From contig JAJYAM010000001.1 of NCBI GenBank assembly GCA_021779535.1, positions 97,152-161,151 on the forward strand: 64,000 nucleotides of DNA, read 5' to 3'. This DNA comes from Pseudomonadota bacterium (lineage in GTDB: Bacteria > Pseudomonadota > Gammaproteobacteria > Steroidobacterales > Steroidobacteraceae). The position numbers were made by a program, and so were the translations under genes. The notes under the pieces were generated by a model, which worked only from the letters and a program-made list of their open reading frames with translations, did not search any database and had not been told where the DNA came from. Below are positions 1,940 to 58,507 of the stretch, one piece after another. The stretch's first letter is position 1. Each line of letters opens with the position of its first letter.

Positions 1940-2598
1940 TTTGCGCCTCCCAGTTTCTTCGCCGGTCCCTTGCCGGTCGCCGGTCCCCTGCCGCCCGACT
2001 TCTCGTCCTCGATGTAGCGGTAGGTCTTCGCCGTGACGTCCATCGTCAAGTCGTCGAAATTGCTGCCGTGGCTGTCGACCGGCGCGATGTGGATGTCGTG
2101 CAGGGTCACGATGCGCGGCAACGCGGCGATCCCGCTGACGAACTTGCCGAATTCGTGATAGCTGCCGACGAGCCGGATCCGGATCGGCAACTCGGCGTAG
2201 AAACCCTTGTCGACCTCGGGCCCCGGCTGGAAGAGCTTCTCCTGCAGGCCCGCGGCGAGACCGGTCTGCGAAATGTCCACCAGCAGGTTCGGGACCTCGG
2301 TTCGTCCGGGCAGTTGTCGCAGCATCGCACCGAAGCTGCGCCGCATCTCCGCGAGCTGCGCCTTGTAGGCGTCGAGGTTCGCGGCGCGCTGCTGCTTGGT
2401 CATGAACTCCTGGCGCAGCGTCTGCTCCTGCGCCTCGGCCCGCAGCAGCTGCGGCCGGTCCTGCGTCCAGACCAGCAGATACCAGAAGATCACCGCACTC
2501 GCGACGAAGATCAGCCCGACGAAGAACACGCGCACCGTGGTCGGCCAGCGACCCGGATCACGCGGATCGAGTGTCCGCAGTTGTTCGATGAAGTTCAT
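1936..2598 (-). CDS. pilO: Type IV pilus inner-membrane protein PilO
   Basis: PilO forms a heterodimer with PilN in the inner membrane and aligns the pilus motor with PilP/PilQ. The 220-aa product has a short cytoplasmic N-terminus, one membrane segment (VFFVGLIFVASAVIFWYLLV, about residues 24-43), a coiled-coil (about 50-95) and a ferredoxin-like periplasmic domain containing the typical YHEFGKFVSGIAALPRIVTL stretch. It overlaps pilN by 4 bp and pilP by 4 bp. Length and topology are normal for the family. Confidence 0.96.
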   Translation of the reverse strand: MNFIEQLRTLDPRDPGRWPTTVRVFFVGLIFVASAVIFWYLLVWTQDRPQLLRAEAQEQTLRQEFMTKQQRAANLDAYKAQLAEMRRSFGAMLRQLPGRTEVPNLLVDISQTGLAAGLQEKLFQPGPEVDKGFYAELPIRIRLVGSYHEFGKFVSGIAALPRIVTLHDIHIAPVDSHGSNFDDLTMDVTAKTYRYIEDEKSGGRGPATGKGPAKKLGGAK

Positions 2599-3182
2599 TT
2601 CGCCGCGACCTCATGGCGCTGGTTCTTGTCGCCGCTCGAACCGGCGCCGACCGTGTTCACGAACAGCACGAACTTCGATCCCCCGGTCGGCGAGCTCTTC
2701 GCCGCCTCGACGACCTGCAGCACCGGGTCGTCCATCCACACCGATGCGTCGATGTTGCGCATCAGCGTCGACACCCGGGTGCTGGACTGCGCGATGCCGT
2801 CGATCTCGAGCTTCGCACCGGACTGCTTCAGCGCGGTCAGGTACACCCCTTCGGGCACCGCGCGCGCGATCGCGTCGAACAGGTGCACGATCTCGGGACG
2901 GCTGCGCTGCAGCTTCTCGATGATCTCCATGCGGGCGACCAGGCGCTGTTTGCGGTCCTCGAGATTCAGGATGTCGGCGATCTTCGCGTCGAGCTTGTGG
3001 ATCTCGCTCTGCAGCAGCTGGTTGCGCGCGAGCTGCGCGTCGATCCGGCCGGCATAGATCAGCTTTCCAAGCAGCGCGAACATGATCGCCCCGAGGACCG
3101 CGGCGCCGGCGGCGAGCGCGAATTCCTTGCGGCGAAGCGTCCGTTGCTGTTCACGCCAGGGCAGTAGGTTGATACGCGGCAT
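2595..3182 (-). CDS. pilN: Type IV pilus inner-membrane protein PilN
   Basis: PilN binds the cytoplasmic actin-like PilM through its conserved N-terminus and pairs with PilO in the membrane. The ORF track begins at 3221, but the protein begins at the ATG at 3182, which yields the hallmark N-terminal motif MPRINLLPWREQQR (the INLLPWR segment is the PilM-binding motif). The 195-aa product then has one membrane helix (FALAAGAAVLGAIMFALLGK), a coiled-coil and a ferredoxin-like domain. It begins 8 bp after the pilM stop and overlaps pilO by 4 bp. Confidence 0.96.
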   Translation of the reverse strand: MPRINLLPWREQQRTLRRKEFALAAGAAVLGAIMFALLGKLIYAGRIDAQLARNQLLQSEIHKLDAKIADILNLEDRKQRLVARMEIIEKLQRSRPEIVHLFDAIARAVPEGVYLTALKQSGAKLEIDGIAQSSTRVSTLMRNIDASVWMDDPVLQVVEAAKSSPTGGSKFVLFVNTVGAGSSGDKNQRHEVAAK

Positions 3183-3190
3183 GGTGGCCC

Positions 3191-4255
3191 TCAGTCGAAG
3201 CTGCGCAACGCGAGTCCGCACGCGGTCAATAGCGCCGTCGCGTCACGCTCCACGCCCTGCGCTCGAGCCTTTGACGACACTTTCATCGCACCGAGCGGAT
3301 CGCCCTTCTCGGCCGGCACTCCGACGCGGCTGGAGACCACGTCGGCGACGCCGGCAATGTTCGCGCAGCCGCCGCAGATCAGGATCTGGTCCGGCTGCGC
3401 GCGGCCGCTTCCGGAGGCGAGGTAGAACTGCAGCGATCGGCTGACCTGCTGCGTCATGTCGTCGATGAACGGGTCGAGCACCTCCGGCTGATAGTTGCTC
3501 GGCAAGCCGCCCTCCTTCTTCGCTCGCCCCGCCTCTTCCATGCTGAGGCCGTAGGTGCGCATGATCTCCTCGGTGAGCAGCTGGCCCCCGAACGCGAAAT
3601 CGCGGGTGTAGATCACCTTCAGGTCGCGCAGCACGCTGAACGTCGTGCTGCTCGCGCCGAAATCGACGACCGCGATCGTGCGGTCCATCCCCCCGTCGGG
3701 CATCTGATGGCGCATCAACGCGCACGCGTTTTCCAGCGCGAACGCTTCGACGTCGACGAGCTGCGCGGTCAGGCCCGAGGTCTGCACCGCGGCGCGGCGC
3801 TGCTCGACGTTCTCGGTCCGCGTTGCGACCAACAGCACGTCGATCATGTCCGAGTCCTTCTCGGACGGCCCGATCACCTGGAAGTCGTAGCTGACCTCCT
3901 CCATCGGGAACGGGATGTACTGGTCGGCCTGCATCTCGACCTGGGCTTCCAGGTCGCTTTCGCCGAGATTCTTCGGCATCTGGATCACTTTGGTGATCGC
4001 CGCGTCGCCGCTGATCGCGACGGCCGCGAGCCGGCTCTTCGCGCCGGAACGCTTGACCGCGCGCCGGACGGCTTCGCCGACCGCCTCGGCGTCGACGATC
4101 GCCTTTTCGTTGATCGCGTTGTGCGGCGTCGGTTCCGCCGCGTAGGACTCGACCCGATATTGATCGCCGGCCATCGTCAACTCGATCAACTTCACCGACG
4201 ACGTGGTGATGTCGAGCCCGAGCAGGGGGCGATACCGCTTAACGAACGACCACAC
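3191..4255 (-). CDS. pilM: Type IV pilus actin-like ATPase PilM
   Basis: PilM is the cytoplasmic actin-fold protein that docks on the PilN tail and links the pilus motor to the alignment complex. The 354-aa product carries the family's phosphate-binding motif near the start (LLGLDITTSSVKLIEL), a second nucleotide motif (VVDFGASSTTFSVL, about residue 195) and a late glycine motif (ILICGGCANIAGV). The chosen start is GTG at 4255, preceded by an AGGA stretch. It is the first gene of pilMNOPQ and is preceded by a roughly 370-nt leader that begins with a cyclic-di-GMP-I riboswitch, so the whole operon is probably under c-di-GMP control. Confidence 0.96.
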   Translation of the reverse strand: MWSFVKRYRPLLGLDITTSSVKLIELTMAGDQYRVESYAAEPTPHNAINEKAIVDAEAVGEAVRRAVKRSGAKSRLAAVAISGDAAITKVIQMPKNLGESDLEAQVEMQADQYIPFPMEEVSYDFQVIGPSEKDSDMIDVLLVATRTENVEQRRAAVQTSGLTAQLVDVEAFALENACALMRHQMPDGGMDRTIAVVDFGASSTTFSVLRDLKVIYTRDFAFGGQLLTEEIMRTYGLSMEEAGRAKKEGGLPSNYQPEVLDPFIDDMTQQVSRSLQFYLASGSGRAQPDQILICGGCANIAGVADVVSSRVGVPAEKGDPLGAMKVSSKARAQGVERDATALLTACGLALRSFD

Positions 4256-4401
4256 GATTTTTCCTTTTTTGGTCAGTATCTTGTAGGTCGAAACTTGTGC
4301 ATCAGATTAGCTATGGATCGAAAACTTATCAAGAAACTGTTAAATCGACCGTGATCCTACTCACGTTAATCGCTCTCGGCCTGCCGGCGACCGGCACTTC
4401 T

Positions 4402-4427
4402 CCCCGGAGACGCTGTCTCTAAAGGGG
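4402..4427 (-). other. GC-rich hairpin in pilM leader
   Basis: On the pilM strand the sequence can form a nested stem: outer CCCC/GGGG, inner GAGAC/GTCTC, loop AGC. There is no U-run after it, so it does not look like a standard intrinsic terminator. It may be part of the riboswitch expression platform or an RNA-stabilising element; this is inference. Confidence 0.4.
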
Positions 4428-4504
4428 TGAGCCAAGTCGGTCGGAGGGTATGATGGCTGCGCCTGGACGAAGCGGGTGCCGGCGTGTACAGATCGCGTGG
4501 GTCG

Positions 4505-4528
4505 CGGGTTCGCGATCGCGCGAACCCG
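4505..4528 (-). other. Perfect 10-bp hairpin immediately after the c-di-GMP aptamer
   Basis: CGGGTTCGCG and CGCGAACCCG are exact reverse complements separated by a 4-nt ATCG loop. On the pilM strand this stem begins about a dozen bases after the aptamer 3' side. No U-tract follows on either strand. The position suits an expression-platform stem, possibly Rho-linked or anti-terminator-like. The structure is seen; the function is inferred. Confidence 0.5.
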
Positions 4529-4535
4529 GCACCTC

Positions 4536-4626
4536 GAAATCCGGCAACCCCGCTATCCTAGGCACGGTCGGCCCTTAGACCGGAAGCTTTGCGTCCCCAC
4601 CTTTCGATGAGTATGCCCCTTGATCA
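4536..4626 (-). ncRNA. Cyclic-di-GMP-I (GEMM-I) riboswitch in the pilMNOPQ leader
   Basis: Read on the minus strand, the sequence contains the conserved GEMM-I parts in order. These are GGGGCATACTC, a GAAA tetraloop closing a 6-bp stem, the near-invariant GGGACGCAAAGC, then CCGGTCTAA, and finally a receptor-like CCTAGGATAGCGGGGTTGCC. By alignment with the Vibrio Vc2 aptamer as I remember it, the ligand-contacting positions are G at G20 and A at A47. That fits c-di-GMP rather than the A20 cGAMP-type (GEMM-Ib) variants. It lies directly upstream of pilM, on the same strand, about 280 nt before the start codon. Whether c-di-GMP turns expression on or off is not visible. Confidence 0.87.
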
Positions 4627-4630
4627 GGCG

Positions 4631-4660
4631 GTAATATGCTTTCGCAATCCCGCCGGTCAA
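4631..4660 (-). promoter_or_regulatory. Candidate sigma-70 promoter for the riboswitch-pilMNOPQ transcript
   Basis: On the minus strand TTGACC (4660-4655) is followed after 18 bp by TATTAC (4636-4631). The predicted start near 4624 falls just before the riboswitch 5' end, which supports the pairing. The -35 box lies only about 20 bp upstream of the ponA start codon on the other strand, so the two genes share a compact divergent control region. Confidence 0.55.
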
Positions 4661-4679
4661 TAAGTTAGAACGGTTTTAC

Positions 4680-7214
4680 GTGCTCAAACGATACCTGGTT
4701 CTCATATCTCGCATTTGCATCCTCGGTGTTGGCGCCGCAGCATTGTTCGTCTTCTCGAACGTCTGCGCGTACGTCTACCTGAAGCCGAGCCTGCCGAACG
4801 TCGACACCCTGCGCGACGTGCAGCTGCAGGTGCCGCTGCGGGTCTATACGCGCGACGGGCGCTTGATCGCCTCGATCGGCGAGCAGCGGCGCATCCCGGT
4901 GCGTTACGACGAAATCCCGAAGTTGCAGGTCGACGCATTCCTCGCCGCCGAGGACGATCGATTCTTCAAGCATCCCGGAGTCGACTGGGAAGGCATCGTC
5001 CGCGCGGCCCTCGCGGACCTGCGCGCCGGGGGCGTGCGCGAAGGCGGCAGCACGATCACGATGCAGGTCGCGCGCGACGTCTACCTTTCGCCGCGGCGCG
5101 ACATGAAGCGCAAGCTGAGCGAGATCTACCTGTCGCTGTTGATGGACGCGCAGTACTCGAAGCAGGACATCTTCTCGATCTACGCGAATCGGACCTTCCT
5201 CGGCGAGCGCGCCTACGGCATCGGTGCCGCGGCCGAGGTGTACTACGGCAAGACGCTCGATCAGCTCACGCTGCCCGAGATGGCGATGATCGCGGGGCTG
5301 CCGAAGGCGCCGTCGGATATCAATCCCGTCGTGAATCCGGCGGCGGCACGGATCCGCCGTGCGTACGTGCTCGGCCGGATGCGCGACCTCGGTTACATCA
5401 CCCGGGCCGAGTACGCCGACGCGATCGCAAGTCCGGTGGCGACCTACGTCCACGGACCCACGCGCGAGGTGCAGGCGCCGTACGTCGCGGAAATGGTGCG
5501 CTCGGCATTGCTCGCGATGTACGGTAACGGGATCTACACCAGCGGATACAAGGTCGTCACCACGATCGACTCGCGGCTGCAGCTCGCCGCCAACGTGGCG
5601 CTGCGCACCGGCCTGCTGGAATACGATCGCCGCCACGGTTATCGAGGCCCGGTCGGCCACTTGCGCCTGCGCGGCGTACCGACCCCGCGTGCTCTGAATA
5701 CCGCGCTCGGCCGCTTCCCGGACGTCGGCGGGCTGCGTCCGGCCGTGGTCGAGAGCGTCGCGCCGAGGAGCGCCCAGATATTCGTCGAGAACCTGGGCGC
5801 GGTCACGCTGCCCTGGGACAAGATCGAGTGGGCGCGGCGGGCGCTCGCCGGCGGCAACGTCGGCGCGGCGCCCCGCACCGCCGCGGCCGTGTTCCACCGC
5901 GGCGACGTGATCTACACGGTCGGCACGACGGCGCAGAACCTGCAGTTCGTGCAGGTACCGCAAGCGCAGGCGGCGCTCGTCGCGATCGACCCGCATGACG
6001 GAGCGATCGCCGCGCTCGACGGCGGTTTCGATTACTACCAGAGCAACTTCAATCGCGCGACCCAGGCCGAGCGCCAGCCGGGCTCGGCGTTCAAGCCGTT
6101 CATCTACGCCGCCGCGTTCGACAAGGGCTACACGCCGGCGAGCGTGATCCTCGACGCGCCGATCGTGCTCGGCGGGGCGACCGATGCGCAGGCGTGGCGG
6201 CCGAAGAACGACGCGAACAAGTTCTACGGACCGACGCGCTTGCGGATCGCGCTGATGCGCTCGCGCAACCTGGTCACGGTGCGCCTGATGCGCGACATCG
6301 GCGGCGAGTACGCGCGCAACTACGTGACGCGATTCGGCTTCAGCAAGGCGCAGCTGCCGGACAACCTGACCCTCGCGCTCGGCACCGCGGACGTGACGCC
6401 GCTGCAGCTCGCCGAAGCCTATGCACCGTTCGCGAACGGCGGTTTCCGGGTGAGCCCGTACTTCATCGATCAGATCGTCGATGCGACCGGGCGCACGGTG
6501 TTCCAGGCCGATCCGCCGATCGCGTGCTTCGACTGCGGCGAGCAGGCGCTACCCCCGGCGCAGGCGCTCGGCTCGCTCGGTACGAGCGGGTCCGAGACCC
6601 CGCCGCCCGCGCCGGCCACGCCACTCACCCCGGGGACGCCGCTCGTCGCGGCCGGGAGCGCGGCCGCGTCGTCGGCCCTCGACACGGGCCAATCGGACGG
6701 CAAGTTCCTGATCCCGGGCCAATACCTCGCGCCGCAGGTGATCCGCCCACAAATCGCCTACCTGCTCGCCGACATGATGGCGGACGTGATCCGCCACGGG
6801 ACGGGTATTCGCGCCCGCGTGCTGAACCGCGATGACGTCGCCGGCAAGACCGGCACGACGAACGATCACCGCGACGCCTGGTTCTCGGGCTTCAACGGCG
6901 ACCTGGTTGCGACGGTCTGGGTCGGTTTCGACCAGGATCAGCCGCTCGGTGCGGGCGAGGAAGGCGGGCGCACCGCGGTGCCGATCTGGACCTACTTCAT
7001 GCATCAGGCGCTCGAGGGCGTGCCCTTGCGCCGGGTGCCGATGCCCAACGGGATCGTGACCGCGCGGATCAATCCCGAGACCGGACTGCTGGCGAGCGCC
7101 GACGATCCGAACGCGATCATGGAGAAATTCATCGAGGGCAACCTGCCGAAACCGGAGGCGCCGGGAGGCAAGGGGGGCACGAAGCCGGCCGAGTCCGAGA
7201 AATCGATCTTCTAG
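4680..7214 (+). CDS. mrcA: Bifunctional penicillin-binding protein 1A
   Basis: Class A PBP (ponA/mrcA): an N-terminal GT51 glycosyltransferase polymerises lipid II and a C-terminal transpeptidase cross-links peptidoglycan in the periplasm. The 844-aa product has a membrane anchor (about 5-33), then GT51 motifs EDDRFFKHPG (about 90) and GGSTITMQ (about 122). The transpeptidase active-site motifs are GSAFKP (SxxK, about 469), SRN (about 525) and KTGTT (about 722). A Pro/Ala/Ser-rich, probably disordered insert of about 45 residues lies between SRN and KTG. The start is GTG at 4680. It is divergent from pilM, a conserved arrangement in Gammaproteobacteria. Confidence 0.97.
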   Translation: MLKRYLVLISRICILGVGAAALFVFSNVCAYVYLKPSLPNVDTLRDVQLQVPLRVYTRDGRLIASIGEQRRIPVRYDEIPKLQVDAFLAAEDDRFFKHPGVDWEGIVRAALADLRAGGVREGGSTITMQVARDVYLSPRRDMKRKLSEIYLSLLMDAQYSKQDIFSIYANRTFLGERAYGIGAAAEVYYGKTLDQLTLPEMAMIAGLPKAPSDINPVVNPAAARIRRAYVLGRMRDLGYITRAEYADAIASPVATYVHGPTREVQAPYVAEMVRSALLAMYGNGIYTSGYKVVTTIDSRLQLAANVALRTGLLEYDRRHGYRGPVGHLRLRGVPTPRALNTALGRFPDVGGLRPAVVESVAPRSAQIFVENLGAVTLPWDKIEWARRALAGGNVGAAPRTAAAVFHRGDVIYTVGTTAQNLQFVQVPQAQAALVAIDPHDGAIAALDGGFDYYQSNFNRATQAERQPGSAFKPFIYAAAFDKGYTPASVILDAPIVLGGATDAQAWRPKNDANKFYGPTRLRIALMRSRNLVTVRLMRDIGGEYARNYVTRFGFSKAQLPDNLTLALGTADVTPLQLAEAYAPFANGGFRVSPYFIDQIVDATGRTVFQADPPIACFDCGEQALPPAQALGSLGTSGSETPPPAPATPLTPGTPLVAAGSAAASSALDTGQSDGKFLIPGQYLAPQVIRPQIAYLLADMMADVIRHGTGIRARVLNRDDVAGKTGTTNDHRDAWFSGFNGDLVATVWVGFDQDQPLGAGEEGGRTAVPIWTYFMHQALEGVPLRRVPMPNGIVTARINPETGLLASADDPNAIMEKFIEGNLPKPEAPGGKGGTKPAESEKSIF

Positions 7215-54231: not shown

Positions 54232-54237
54232 TATAGT
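54232..54237 (+). promoter_or_regulatory. Candidate -10 box for the TPP riboswitch transcript
   Basis: TATAGT (five of six consensus bases) is placed so that transcription would start near 54244, exactly at the riboswitch 5' stem. No clear -35 box is seen in the GC-rich DNA upstream. Confidence 0.5.
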
Positions 54238-54240
54238 AGC

Positions 54241-54347
54241 CACCGCTGGGGTGGTCCCGTCGCCGGGGCCTGAGATGCCGAGCGGGCGCGATCCTGCGCC
54301 TCGCGGCAAACCCATAGAACCTGATCCGGTTAATGCCGGCGGAGGGA
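54241..54347 (+). ncRNA. TPP (THI-element) riboswitch
   Basis: All core TPP-aptamer blocks are present in order: CGCTGGGGTG, GGGGCCTGAGATGCC (the CUGAGA pyrimidine-sensing loop), CAAACCCATAGAACCTGATC and GGTTAATGCCGGCGGAGGGA. The closing P1 stem (CCGC near 54243 with GCGG near 54339) includes the first bases of the GGAGGGAG ribosome-binding site of the next gene. Ligand binding would therefore hide the site and switch translation off. There is no separate terminator hairpin. Confidence 0.95.
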
Positions 54348-54350
54348 GCG

Positions 54351-56501
54351 ATGCCTCGAATTCGAACGGCCCGGCGGGCCGCTTTCCTGATGTTCTACGC
54401 GTCGACCGTGCTGCCGTACGCCAGCGCGCACGCGGCGAGATCGGCCGCCGGCGGCGAGCCCGATACCCTGCGGAAGATCGTCGTGACCGCGACGCTGCGC
54501 GCAGTGCCGGACGTCGATCTCGCCGGCAGCGCGACCGTGCTCGGCGCGCACACCTTGCGCGCCGCCGGTGAGCAGCATTTCGAGGACGTGCTCCCGCTGG
54601 TGCCGAACCTCAACTGGTCCGGTGACACGTCGCGGCCGCGTTACTTTCAGATCCGCGGAATCGGCGAGCTGGAACAGTACCAGGGCGCGCCGAACCCCTC
54701 CGTCGGCTTCATCATCGACGACATCGATTTCAGCGGCCTCGGCTCCGCCGCGACGCTGTTCGACATCGCGCGGATCCAGGTGCTGCGCGGCCCGCAGGCG
54801 ACGATCGACGGGGCGAATGCGCTCGCCGGGCTGATCGTCGTCCAGAGCGAAGCTCCCGCCGACCGATTCGGGGGACGGGTCGAAGTCGGCGCCGGCGACT
54901 ACGGGACGCGGTCGTACGGCGCGGTGCTGACCGGCCCGGTTCCGGCGCTCGATTCGGCGTTTCGCATCGCCGCGCAGCGCTACGTCAGCAACGGCTTCTA
55001 CACGAACGTCTTCCTGCATCGGAACAACACCAACAACCGCGACGAGACCACGCTGCGCGGCCGCTGGCGTTACCGGCCGGATCCGAACCTGCGGGTCGAC
55101 CTGACGGTGCTGCATGTCGCGATCAACAACGGCTATGACGCGTGGGCGGTCGACAATTCGCGCACGACCGAGTCCGATCAGCCGGGGGAGGACGTGCAGC
55201 ACTCGACCGGCGTATCGCTGCACTCGATCTACCGGGGCTGGCACGCGGCGACGCTGACCGCGATCGCGACGTATGCACGCTCGTTGATCGGCTACGGCTA
55301 CGACGGCGACTGGGGGAATGAGCGCCTCTGGGCGCCCTACACCTACCAGTACAGCGAGTTCCAGGCGCGGAACCGCTCGACCCGGAGCCTCGAGCTGCGA
55401 CTCGCGTCGCCGGCGCGGCCGGGGATCGATTGGCTGGTCGGCGTGTACGGGTTCGAGATGCGCGAAGGCCTGAGCGACACGAATCTCGGCGTGTACGTCG
55501 ATCCGATACAGCAGTACGCGTCGACGACCGATTCGGTGCTGACGAGCCGTTATCGCGATCGCAACGTCGCCCTCTACGGCGAGATCGGCGGTGAGATCGG
55601 CTCGCGCACGCGATGGTCGGTCGGCGTGCGCGGCGAGCGGCACACGACGCGCTACCACGACCTGACGACCAATCTCGGTGCGCCGTCGACCAGCAACGCG
55701 TTCGCGCCGTCCTTCGCGCTGTGGGGCGGGCACCTGTCGATCGACTATGCGCTGCGGCCCGAAGAGCACCTCTATGCGTTGATCTCGCGGGGCTACAAGG
55801 CGGGCGGCTTCAACTTGAGCCAGGGCCTGCCGGCCGGCGAGCGCACGTTCGGCTCCGAGTCGCTGATCGATTACGAGATCGGGCACAAGCTCGTGGCCGA
55901 TCGCGGCCGCGTGCAGGCCGACACGTCGATCTTCTACATGCGCCGCCAGTCGCCGCAATTGAAGACCGGCACGCAGCTCGTCGCCGACGATCCGAACACG
56001 TTCGTGTTCTACACGGGGAACGCGAGCTCCGGCTATTCCTACGGGGTCGAAAGCAGCCTGCGCTGGCGGGCGACGCGGACCATGACGTTCGGCGCGGCGT
56101 TCGGATGGCTGCAGACGCTCTACCGCGGGTTCGTCCAGAACGGAATCCTGCTGCCCGACCGGCCCCTGCCGCATGCGCCGGACTGGCAGGGCGCGCTGAA
56201 CGCGCAATGGCAGGACCCGCGCGGACCCTACGCGCGCATCGACGTGACCGGCCTGGGCGGCTTCTACTACGATCTGCCGCCGAACCCGACCCGGTCACAT
56301 CCCTACGGGCTCGCGAACGTCAAGGTCGGCTGGAAGGACGCGCGCTACGACGTCGATCTGTGGGTCCGCAATGTGCTGAACAAGGACTACACGGTCCGCG
56401 GATTCTATTTCGGCGACGTGCCGCCGAACTTCCCGAACGCGCTGTATACGCAGCTCGGCGACCCGAGGACCTGGGGCGCGGACCTCACGGTGCGCTTCTA
56501 G
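54351..56501 (+). CDS. TonB-dependent receptor under TPP riboswitch control (candidate thiamine/precursor transporter)
   Basis: The start is the ATG at 54351, 2 bases after the GGAGGGAG site that ends the riboswitch; the track start at 54333 lies inside the aptamer. The 716-aa product has a signal peptide (about 1-29), TonB-box-like LRKIVVTATLR, plug motifs VPNLNWSGDTSRPRYFQIRG, VGFIIDDIDF and VLRGPQATIDGANALAG, and a barrel ending LTVRF. Thiamine-regulated receptors of this kind (Omr-type) are known from riboswitch surveys in other bacteria. Uptake of thiamine, TPP or a pyrimidine/thiazole precursor is inferred from regulation alone. No thi gene is adjacent. Confidence 0.92.
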   Translation: MPRIRTARRAAFLMFYASTVLPYASAHAARSAAGGEPDTLRKIVVTATLRAVPDVDLAGSATVLGAHTLRAAGEQHFEDVLPLVPNLNWSGDTSRPRYFQIRGIGELEQYQGAPNPSVGFIIDDIDFSGLGSAATLFDIARIQVLRGPQATIDGANALAGLIVVQSEAPADRFGGRVEVGAGDYGTRSYGAVLTGPVPALDSAFRIAAQRYVSNGFYTNVFLHRNNTNNRDETTLRGRWRYRPDPNLRVDLTVLHVAINNGYDAWAVDNSRTTESDQPGEDVQHSTGVSLHSIYRGWHAATLTAIATYARSLIGYGYDGDWGNERLWAPYTYQYSEFQARNRSTRSLELRLASPARPGIDWLVGVYGFEMREGLSDTNLGVYVDPIQQYASTTDSVLTSRYRDRNVALYGEIGGEIGSRTRWSVGVRGERHTTRYHDLTTNLGAPSTSNAFAPSFALWGGHLSIDYALRPEEHLYALISRGYKAGGFNLSQGLPAGERTFGSESLIDYEIGHKLVADRGRVQADTSIFYMRRQSPQLKTGTQLVADDPNTFVFYTGNASSGYSYGVESSLRWRATRTMTFGAAFGWLQTLYRGFVQNGILLPDRPLPHAPDWQGALNAQWQDPRGPYARIDVTGLGGFYYDLPPNPTRSHPYGLANVKVGWKDARYDVDLWVRNVLNKDYTVRGFYFGDVPPNFPNALYTQLGDPRTWGADLTVRF

Positions 56502-57508: not shown

Positions 57509-58507
57509 TCAGGCCGGCGCTTCGGCGCCCGGCGCTCGCCGCAATTCCTTGTCGTGATACATCCGATGCTCCGCGAGACTCTGGAGTTCGCGCAGCTCGC
57601 GGGCATCCTTCGGATACGAGGCGGCGCCGATGCTCACGCTACAGCGAATCATTCGCGAACGCAGATCGAGGGTCGTCTTGAAGACGTTGTGGCGGATCCG
57701 GTTGACGATCGCCGCGGCGACCTCGGGAGGCGCCCCCGGCAACAGCACCGCGAACTCGTCCGCTCCGCAACGCGATGCGCGATCGCTCGAGCGGATGCTC
57801 CGCTGCAGGCACCGCGCGACCATCGTCAGCGCACCGTCGCCCGCGTCCCGGCCGAACTCCTCGTTGATCCGGTCGAGCTGGTTCACGTCGATGAACAGCA
57901 CCGAGTACGGCCGGTGATCGCGTTCGCGCGATCGGTGCTCCTGGTCCCAGACCGCCTCGAACGCGCGCGCGTTGAGCAATCCGGTCAGCGGGTCGTCGTG
58001 TGCCAAGCGCTCGATACGGTCCCGCGCCTCGGTCACGTCGGCCGCGAGAGTCGAGGTCACGTAGGCGACGAGCAGGATCGGCGCCATCACGCCGACCGTC
58101 CGTGCGCCCATCGCGAGCCAGTTCGGATCGAGCCCCGGAGTCGCGATGGCGAGACCCGCGTACACCGCGATGGCCGCGCCGACCTGCGCCATCGCGGTCG
58201 CCCGCCCGAGCGCGAACGCGCTGAGGATCAAGGGCAGCAGGTACAGGTTCACCAGCGGGCTGTTGGCCCGCCCGGTGAACCAGAGGACCGCGCTGACGAA
58301 TGCGACCATCGCCCAGGACTCGACCTGCACCCGGGTGCGGCTGCGGTTCGGCAGGAAGCGACGCGAACGGAACACCGCGATCGTCGCCGCAAACGCGGCC
58401 AGCAGCGACACGAGCGCCCAGGGATGCGCGCCGATCGAGCTCGACCAGACCAGCACCAGCGCCGCGAGCGCGAGGCACAGGATCTCGATGGAACGGATGC
58501 TGCGCAC
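57509..58507 (-). CDS. Membrane GGDEF-domain protein with a GADEF active-site motif
   Basis: The 332-aa product has about six membrane helices (residues 1-150) and a C-terminal GGDEF domain (about 165-325) starting HDDPLTGLLNARAFEAVW with the Mg/nucleotide motif FIDVNQLDRINEEFGRDAGD. The signature loop reads RCGADEF instead of RxGGDEF, so the second Gly is Ala. No upstream RxxD inhibitory site is obvious. It may be a weak diguanylate cyclase or a degenerate receptor. c-di-GMP is relevant here because a c-di-GMP riboswitch precedes pilM in the same window. Confidence 0.88.
   Translation of the reverse strand: MRSIRSIEILCLALAALVLVWSSSIGAHPWALVSLLAAFAATIAVFRSRRFLPNRSRTRVQVESWAMVAFVSAVLWFTGRANSPLVNLYLLPLILSAFALGRATAMAQVGAAIAVYAGLAIATPGLDPNWLAMGARTVGVMAPILLVAYVTSTLAADVTEARDRIERLAHDDPLTGLLNARAFEAVWDQEHRSRERDHRPYSVLFIDVNQLDRINEEFGRDAGDGALTMVARCLQRSIRSSDRASRCGADEFAVLLPGAPPEVAAAIVNRIRHNVFKTTLDLRSRMIRCSVSIGAASYPKDARELRELQSLAEHRMYHDKELRRAPGAEAPA

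Follow-up and report, generated by a model that had tools for sequence, protein, structure and literature searches.

A genuine and conserved c-di-GMP-I (GEMM-I) aptamer lies in the leader of the pilMNOPQ operon in the window, by which we mean the whole 64-kb stretch of DNA analyzed here, and it was confirmed by covariance search and by comparison with related genomes. Between this aptamer and pilM there is a CRP/Vfr-type operator with a promoter region, judged from sequence to be as conserved as the aptamer itself. That operator was not foreseen in the original prediction, and it changes the meaning of the aptamer, because with a promoter at this place the switch can gate the distal transcript only and not the whole operon. 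The riboswitch class is well known and this is one more use of it; what is new is the place, the pilMNOPQ leader. In the open-access literature, a scope outside which most subscription journals fall, we found no previous description of a c-di-GMP riboswitch ahead of pilM or pilMNOPQ in Gammaproteobacteria.

The operon is encoded on the minus strand and consists of pilM (3191 to 4255; GTG start, AAGGA at 4266-4262; PF11104, E 1.9e-122), pilN (2595 to 3221; PF05137, E 7.7e-23), pilO (1936 to 2598; PF04350, E 4e-54), pilP (1424 to 1939; PF04351, E 1.3e-47), and pilQ (3 to 1427; AMIN, STN, and Secretin_N domains), of which the N-terminal 475 amino acids are present before the window ends. The genes are tightly packed, with coding regions overlapping or abutting. 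On the other side of the leader, and outside the switch, a divergent gene on the plus strand (4680 to 7214) encodes an mrcA-like penicillin-binding protein 1A with Transgly, Transpeptidase, and PCB_OB domains. The aptamer had been predicted on the minus strand at 4536-4626, about 280 nt ahead of pilM. A cmscan search of the whole window against Rfam gave only two matches, one of them to RF01051 at 4627-4540 on the minus strand, so the predicted coordinates were correct within a few bases. The match was full length (model positions 1 to 87 of 87) and significant, with a score of 73.3 bits against a gathering threshold of 35 and an E value of 1.8e-12. The consensus pieces that had been quoted as marks of a GEMM-I RNA were found in the sequence, the GAAA tetraloop on P2 among them, and the distance from the aptamer 3' end (4540) to the pilM GTG (4255) was measured as 284 nt. 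Across 50 aptamers of the family, compensatory double changes were seen in 9 of the 22 consensus pairs, in support of the P2 and P3 stems. The P1 helix, which would close the junction, consists of about four weak pairs, paired in one register in 83% of cells and without covariation.

The choice between c-di-GMP and 3',3'-cGAMP was approached through individual residues, with Vc2 numbering placed on the window aptamer from what we take to be the Vc2 sequence. By alignment, the equivalents of G20, A47, and C92 are all three present, and position 20 is thus a G, as had been predicted, rather than the A by which a GEMM-Ib aptamer is recognized. The ligand-contact and highly conserved GEMM-I residues listed in PMC3764141 and PMC4744006 were likewise read as present. 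Departures in the window's genus are found at position 18, mostly G or U, and at position 24, with U instead of A; PMC3764141 lists neither position as highly conserved, and both changes might lower affinity. With a single exception, the intact pilM aptamers read at genus level, from the window and its clade (L004-L021), have U at Vc2 A24 (CAUAC for CAAAC). The Hypr type of GGDEF enzyme, which makes cGAMP, has Ser where the c-di-GMP type has Asp. The Asp of the GHxxGD-type motif is kept in all nine GGDEF domains that were read, eight with canonical motifs in the genome and one in the window. The last of these, in a 337-amino-acid membrane protein (57536-58003, minus strand), has the motif variants GRDAGD and GADEF and is a possible c-di-GMP enzyme. 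From these residues c-di-GMP rather than cGAMP is expected as the ligand, in agreement with the original prediction. A cGAMP switch would share its gene target with the pilM switch of Geobacter metallireducens, and the window aptamer has a U-G wobble near the P2 base as reported for Geobacter, in a region where mutations alter selectivity (PMC9262584). However, the G at position 20 and the nine c-di-GMP-type Asp residues speak against cGAMP, and we consider this reading very unlikely.

The leader was mapped for conservation as the mean pairwise identity of the window and six relatives whose PilM proteins are 92 to 98% identical. The aptamer showed 87% identity, with 65 of 88 columns invariant, and the segment immediately upstream (4664-4628) showed 85%. 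That segment contains the distal promoter candidate on the minus strand (4633 to 4660), which is TTGACC (4660-4655) and CATATT (4638-4633) separated by 16 nt. It ends 5 nt 5' of the aptamer, giving a predicted start at about 4627, the aptamer's 5' edge. A promoter candidate had been placed at just this end of the aptamer, and it proved to be the only sigma-70-like site within 4000-5200 and to be conserved in the relatives. Identity fell to 46 to 53% in the leader 3' of the aptamer; it was high again closer to pilM, at 87% over 4364-4290 and 93% at and near the pilM ribosome site. The fast-evolving leader thus contains two islands of conservation, one made up of the distal promoter and the aptamer and the other just before pilM, with about 175 nt of diverged sequence between them.

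The second island holds the operator GTGAGTAGGATCAC at 4351 to 4364, with palindromic half sites GTGA-N6-TCAC, and a proximal promoter candidate on the minus strand, TTGATA-17-TAATCT (4304 to 4332). CRP/Vfr operators have GTGA-N6-TCAC as their consensus. Of 79 loci, 58 have a perfect match to it in the 230 nt ahead of pilM, compared to 0.3% in shuffled sequences. As read from the sequences, the operator center in the window's genus lies about 60 nt ahead of the predicted start, near 4297 in the window, which is class I spacing, and in other genera it lies about 41 nt ahead of a start predicted from a good -10 element (TATATA), which is class II spacing. The host genome encodes a CRP/Vfr orthologue (L128) that matched CRP and Vfr with E values of about 1e-73, versus 1e-60 for Clp. 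A Clp-type, c-di-GMP-binding regulator at this site was rejected on the ground that the orthologue is nearer to CRP/Vfr; the operator could also be bound by another protein of the CRP family. The operator is kept in loci in which the aptamer is decayed or gone (L011, L016, L022, L023, L066, L074, L075, L077, and L083). On this comparative evidence an aptamer-free pilM transcript is likely, and some pilMNOPQ mRNA should be made without passing through the switch.

The original prediction had gone further and supposed that assembly of the whole machine would be coupled directly to c-di-GMP. What stands of it is that the pilMNOPQ leader carries the aptamer; what is weakened is the exclusive control. 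If the riboswitch were the sole gate, all pilMNOPQ mRNA would start at the distal promoter and carry the aptamer. The conservation of the distal promoter together with the aptamer and the tight packing of the operon, with its overlapping genes, are in keeping with this, but the CRP/Vfr operator and its promoter region, found between the aptamer and pilM, are conserved to the same degree and persist in species with a lost or degraded aptamer. We therefore regard a sole gate as improbable and favor a switch that acts beside a bypass promoter.

The aptamer is widespread at this locus. A survey of pilM leaders in related genomes, which had been suggested along with the original prediction, was made by building a covariance model from the 50 aptamers and running it on 80 pilM loci of named public genomes; most of these genomes are Steroidobacteraceae or unclassified gammaproteobacterial metagenome-assembled genomes. 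A strong aptamer was found directly before pilM in 58 of the 80 and a decayed one in three (L011, L016, and L061); the set includes one locus masked at the aptamer's place (L013) and one without upstream DNA (L029). Further pilM loci of the order carried the aptamer in 9 of 29 cases, all in five other families (f4, f6, f10, f11, and f15); within the class but outside the order, it was absent from all 27 pilM loci searched. At L022 a near-complete deletion of the aptamer has left the distal promoter and the last aptamer bases. On the PilM tree, which by itself is unable to separate gain from loss, the aptamer trait requires 15 changes, compared to 44.9 in shuffles. Taken together, the relics, the L022 deletion, and the tree read as an old acquisition of the c-di-GMP link at this locus followed by repeated loss. 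The decayed aptamers of L011, L016, and L022, flanked by intact elements, form a natural loss-of-switch series that is useful for comparison.

GEMM-I aptamers are also common elsewhere in these bacteria. The host genome has three, and at least one was found in 100 of 120 family genomes, compared to none in 14 well-known control genomes. Of those in the host genome, one (C90; L003, 1501-1592) stands ahead of an M23 peptidase gene followed by a secA-like open reading frame. The same gene order is seen in L094 and similar first genes in L087, L090, and L098, so that the M23 peptidase gene may be another conserved target of GEMM-I in the family. Another (C65; L002, 1501-1595) stands ahead of a gene for an FAD-binding, ALO-type oxidase, an unusual target. 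Tandem GEMM-I aptamers about 110 nt apart were seen in another family genome (L095, 1501-1587 and 1310-1388), and L111 has two aptamers as well. A riboswitch of a different class, the TPP riboswitch RF00059, was found in the window at 54237-54364 on the plus strand (67.6 bits). It overlaps the predicted start (54333) of an open reading frame whose product has a TonB-receptor plug domain. Translation of that frame likely begins further downstream, and the arrangement suggests thiamine-regulated outer-membrane uptake.

How the aptamer may act on the leader was examined through its 3' strand. The region CGGAUU (4538 to 4543, minus strand) is common to the weak P1 and to a second helix, here called the switch helix, that is visible in pairing counts and in the ligand-free fold. 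Its partner, GAUCUG at 4489 to 4494 on the minus strand (consensus RGRYCUGA), is conserved 40 to 52 nt 3' of the aptamer in 16 relatives. In these 16 genus sequences, the five bases after GUUGCC pair with RGRYCU(GA) in 96% of cells, falling to 10 to 54% in slid controls; the element had been found by eye before the pairing was counted. Two of the pairs show double changes, with five double-change cells versus 1.7 in shuffles, of which 1 in 500 was as high. Complementarity of the aptamer 3' strand to the leader in single sequences was not significant (median P value, 0.28), and the evidence for the switch helix is thus the covariation count. In the ligand-free minimum-energy fold of the window, 4543-4538 is paired with 4494-4489, and the whole fold is not unusually stable (z score of -1.18). 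As one strand is able to form either P1 or the switch helix, the two would be alternatives. A similar helix could be seen by eye in some species among the distant group B leaders (GGUNCGAAC with GUUCGACC), but RNAalifold did not resolve it and we do not claim it.

The output of such a switch is a separate question. No intrinsic terminator, consisting of a stem plus a U-run, was found on the leader strand in 4000-5200, which speaks against a switch of the intrinsic-terminator type. The pilM ribosome site is more than 270 nt distant, has A-rich surroundings, and is predicted in the leader fold to be largely unpaired except for its GG. Downstream of the aptamer there is a C-rich, G-poor stretch of 78 nt (4424 to 4501, minus strand), a candidate Rho-utilization region by its composition. 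An excess of C over G is the composition of Rho-utilization sites. The difference between C and G has a mean of +0.052 in 54 aptamer-bearing leaders, and is above zero in 50 of them; the highest value along the window's own leader is 0.27, over 4501-4424. It is -0.037 at the same place in 12 aptamer-less loci and -0.012 in downstream coding sequence. A 5% bias of C over G is modest evidence for Rho. With the C-rich leader, no intrinsic terminator, and a remote ribosome site, Rho-dependent attenuation is nevertheless the likeliest output that we can infer.

Two other outputs have to be weighed against Rho. The switch helix could free or hide a ribosome site, which might belong to pilM or to a small open reading frame in the leader. 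In one subclade the partner element, GAGGUCUGAAUGGAUGA, resembles a ribosome site plus AUG and opens frames of 30 to 40 codons, and Vc2 reportedly acts on a ribosome site far from the aptamer, going by a reference title quoted in PMC7371385. A small leader frame 3' of the aptamer is plausible in that subclade but is not general, as the window's own clade has no start codon after the element, and the distance and open structure of the pilM site argue against direct control there; we consider translational control unlikely, although less so than a sole gate. The aptamer and leader might instead make up a small regulatory RNA, with pilM transcribed only from its own CRP/Vfr promoter. The two islands, with the diverged stretch between them, do look like separately conserved units, and another reference title quoted in PMC7371385 has Vc2 also controlling a putative small upstream RNA. 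Against this, there is no terminator-like site on this strand to end such an RNA ahead of pilM, and the aptamer's association specifically with pilM has been kept across the whole order. A free-standing small RNA is in our judgment as improbable as the sole gate.

The model that we prefer, a riboswitch-gated distal transcript with a CRP/Vfr bypass promoter, is one that we hold with somewhat better than even confidence. The distal promoter would produce a long pilMNOPQ leader transcript with the c-di-GMP-I riboswitch at its start. Binding of c-di-GMP would stabilize the weak P1 together with the three-way junction. When no ligand is bound, the bases immediately 3' of the aptamer would pair with the covarying element some 50 nt further on. 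Which fold forms would probably decide whether transcription of the 284-nt leader proceeds into pilM, most likely through Rho acting on the C-rich leader. We lean slightly toward c-di-GMP turning the long transcript on, a direction that is probable by analogy with Geobacter pilM and to that extent a guess. A second, riboswitch-free transcript would come from the CRP/Vfr-dependent promoter between aptamer and pilM, and with both transcripts the operon would integrate c-di-GMP with cAMP. The fullest form of the model, in which an order of Gammaproteobacteria uses a Rho-gated c-di-GMP riboswitch transcript and a cAMP/Vfr bypass promoter to combine both second messengers at one operon, is possible but tentative, and we would not bet on all its parts together. 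Control of type IV pili by c-di-GMP is mostly known at the protein level, through PilZ, FimX, and MshE-type ATPases. The aptamer would place such control at the mRNA of core pilus assembly genes in a large environmental group, where it probably governs one of two routes to pilus expression, and the two-promoter layout offers a concrete, testable case of cAMP meeting c-di-GMP at one operon.

Several known systems resemble parts of this arrangement. The class II riboswitch before a type IV pilin gene in Clostridioides difficile, as cited in PMC4744006, also puts type IV pili under c-di-GMP control, but it is an unrelated aptamer class in a Gram-positive bacterium and its target is a pilin gene rather than pilMNOPQ. 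Vc1 of Vibrio cholerae, ahead of gbpA, is a GEMM-I RNA with the G20, A47, and C92 equivalents, a long 5' leader, and an activating effect; its target is an adhesin, and no comparable second promoter is seen in the parts of PMC4744006 that describe it. The original prediction had named Geobacter as a precedent for GEMM control of pilus genes. That precedent is real, but the G. metallireducens pilM riboswitch is of the GEMM-Ib type, responds to cGAMP, and works as an ON switch through an intrinsic terminator (PMC9262584). The two share a GEMM-I-type aptamer in a pilM operon leader and a P1 strand that competes with a downstream strand. They differ in that the Geobacter switch has A20 and a terminator. 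The one described here has G20 and lacks an intrinsic terminator; its leader runs for 284 nt, and a CRP/Vfr promoter region follows the aptamer. Geobacter is a far-away lineage, and the two switches probably reflect independent recruitment. In V. cholerae, promoters on both sides of the Vc2 aptamer give tfoY transcripts with and without the riboswitch (PMC7371385). There, as we propose here, a c-di-GMP-I aptamer is carried on transcripts that start upstream of it and further promoters behind it yield aptamer-free mRNA; in contrast, VpsR drives the downstream promoters of tfoY, where the window has a CRP/Vfr site, Vc2 is a translational OFF switch, and its target is a regulator and not the pilus (PMC7371385). 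By target, the closest known case is therefore G. metallireducens pilM; by layout, it is V. cholerae tfoY.
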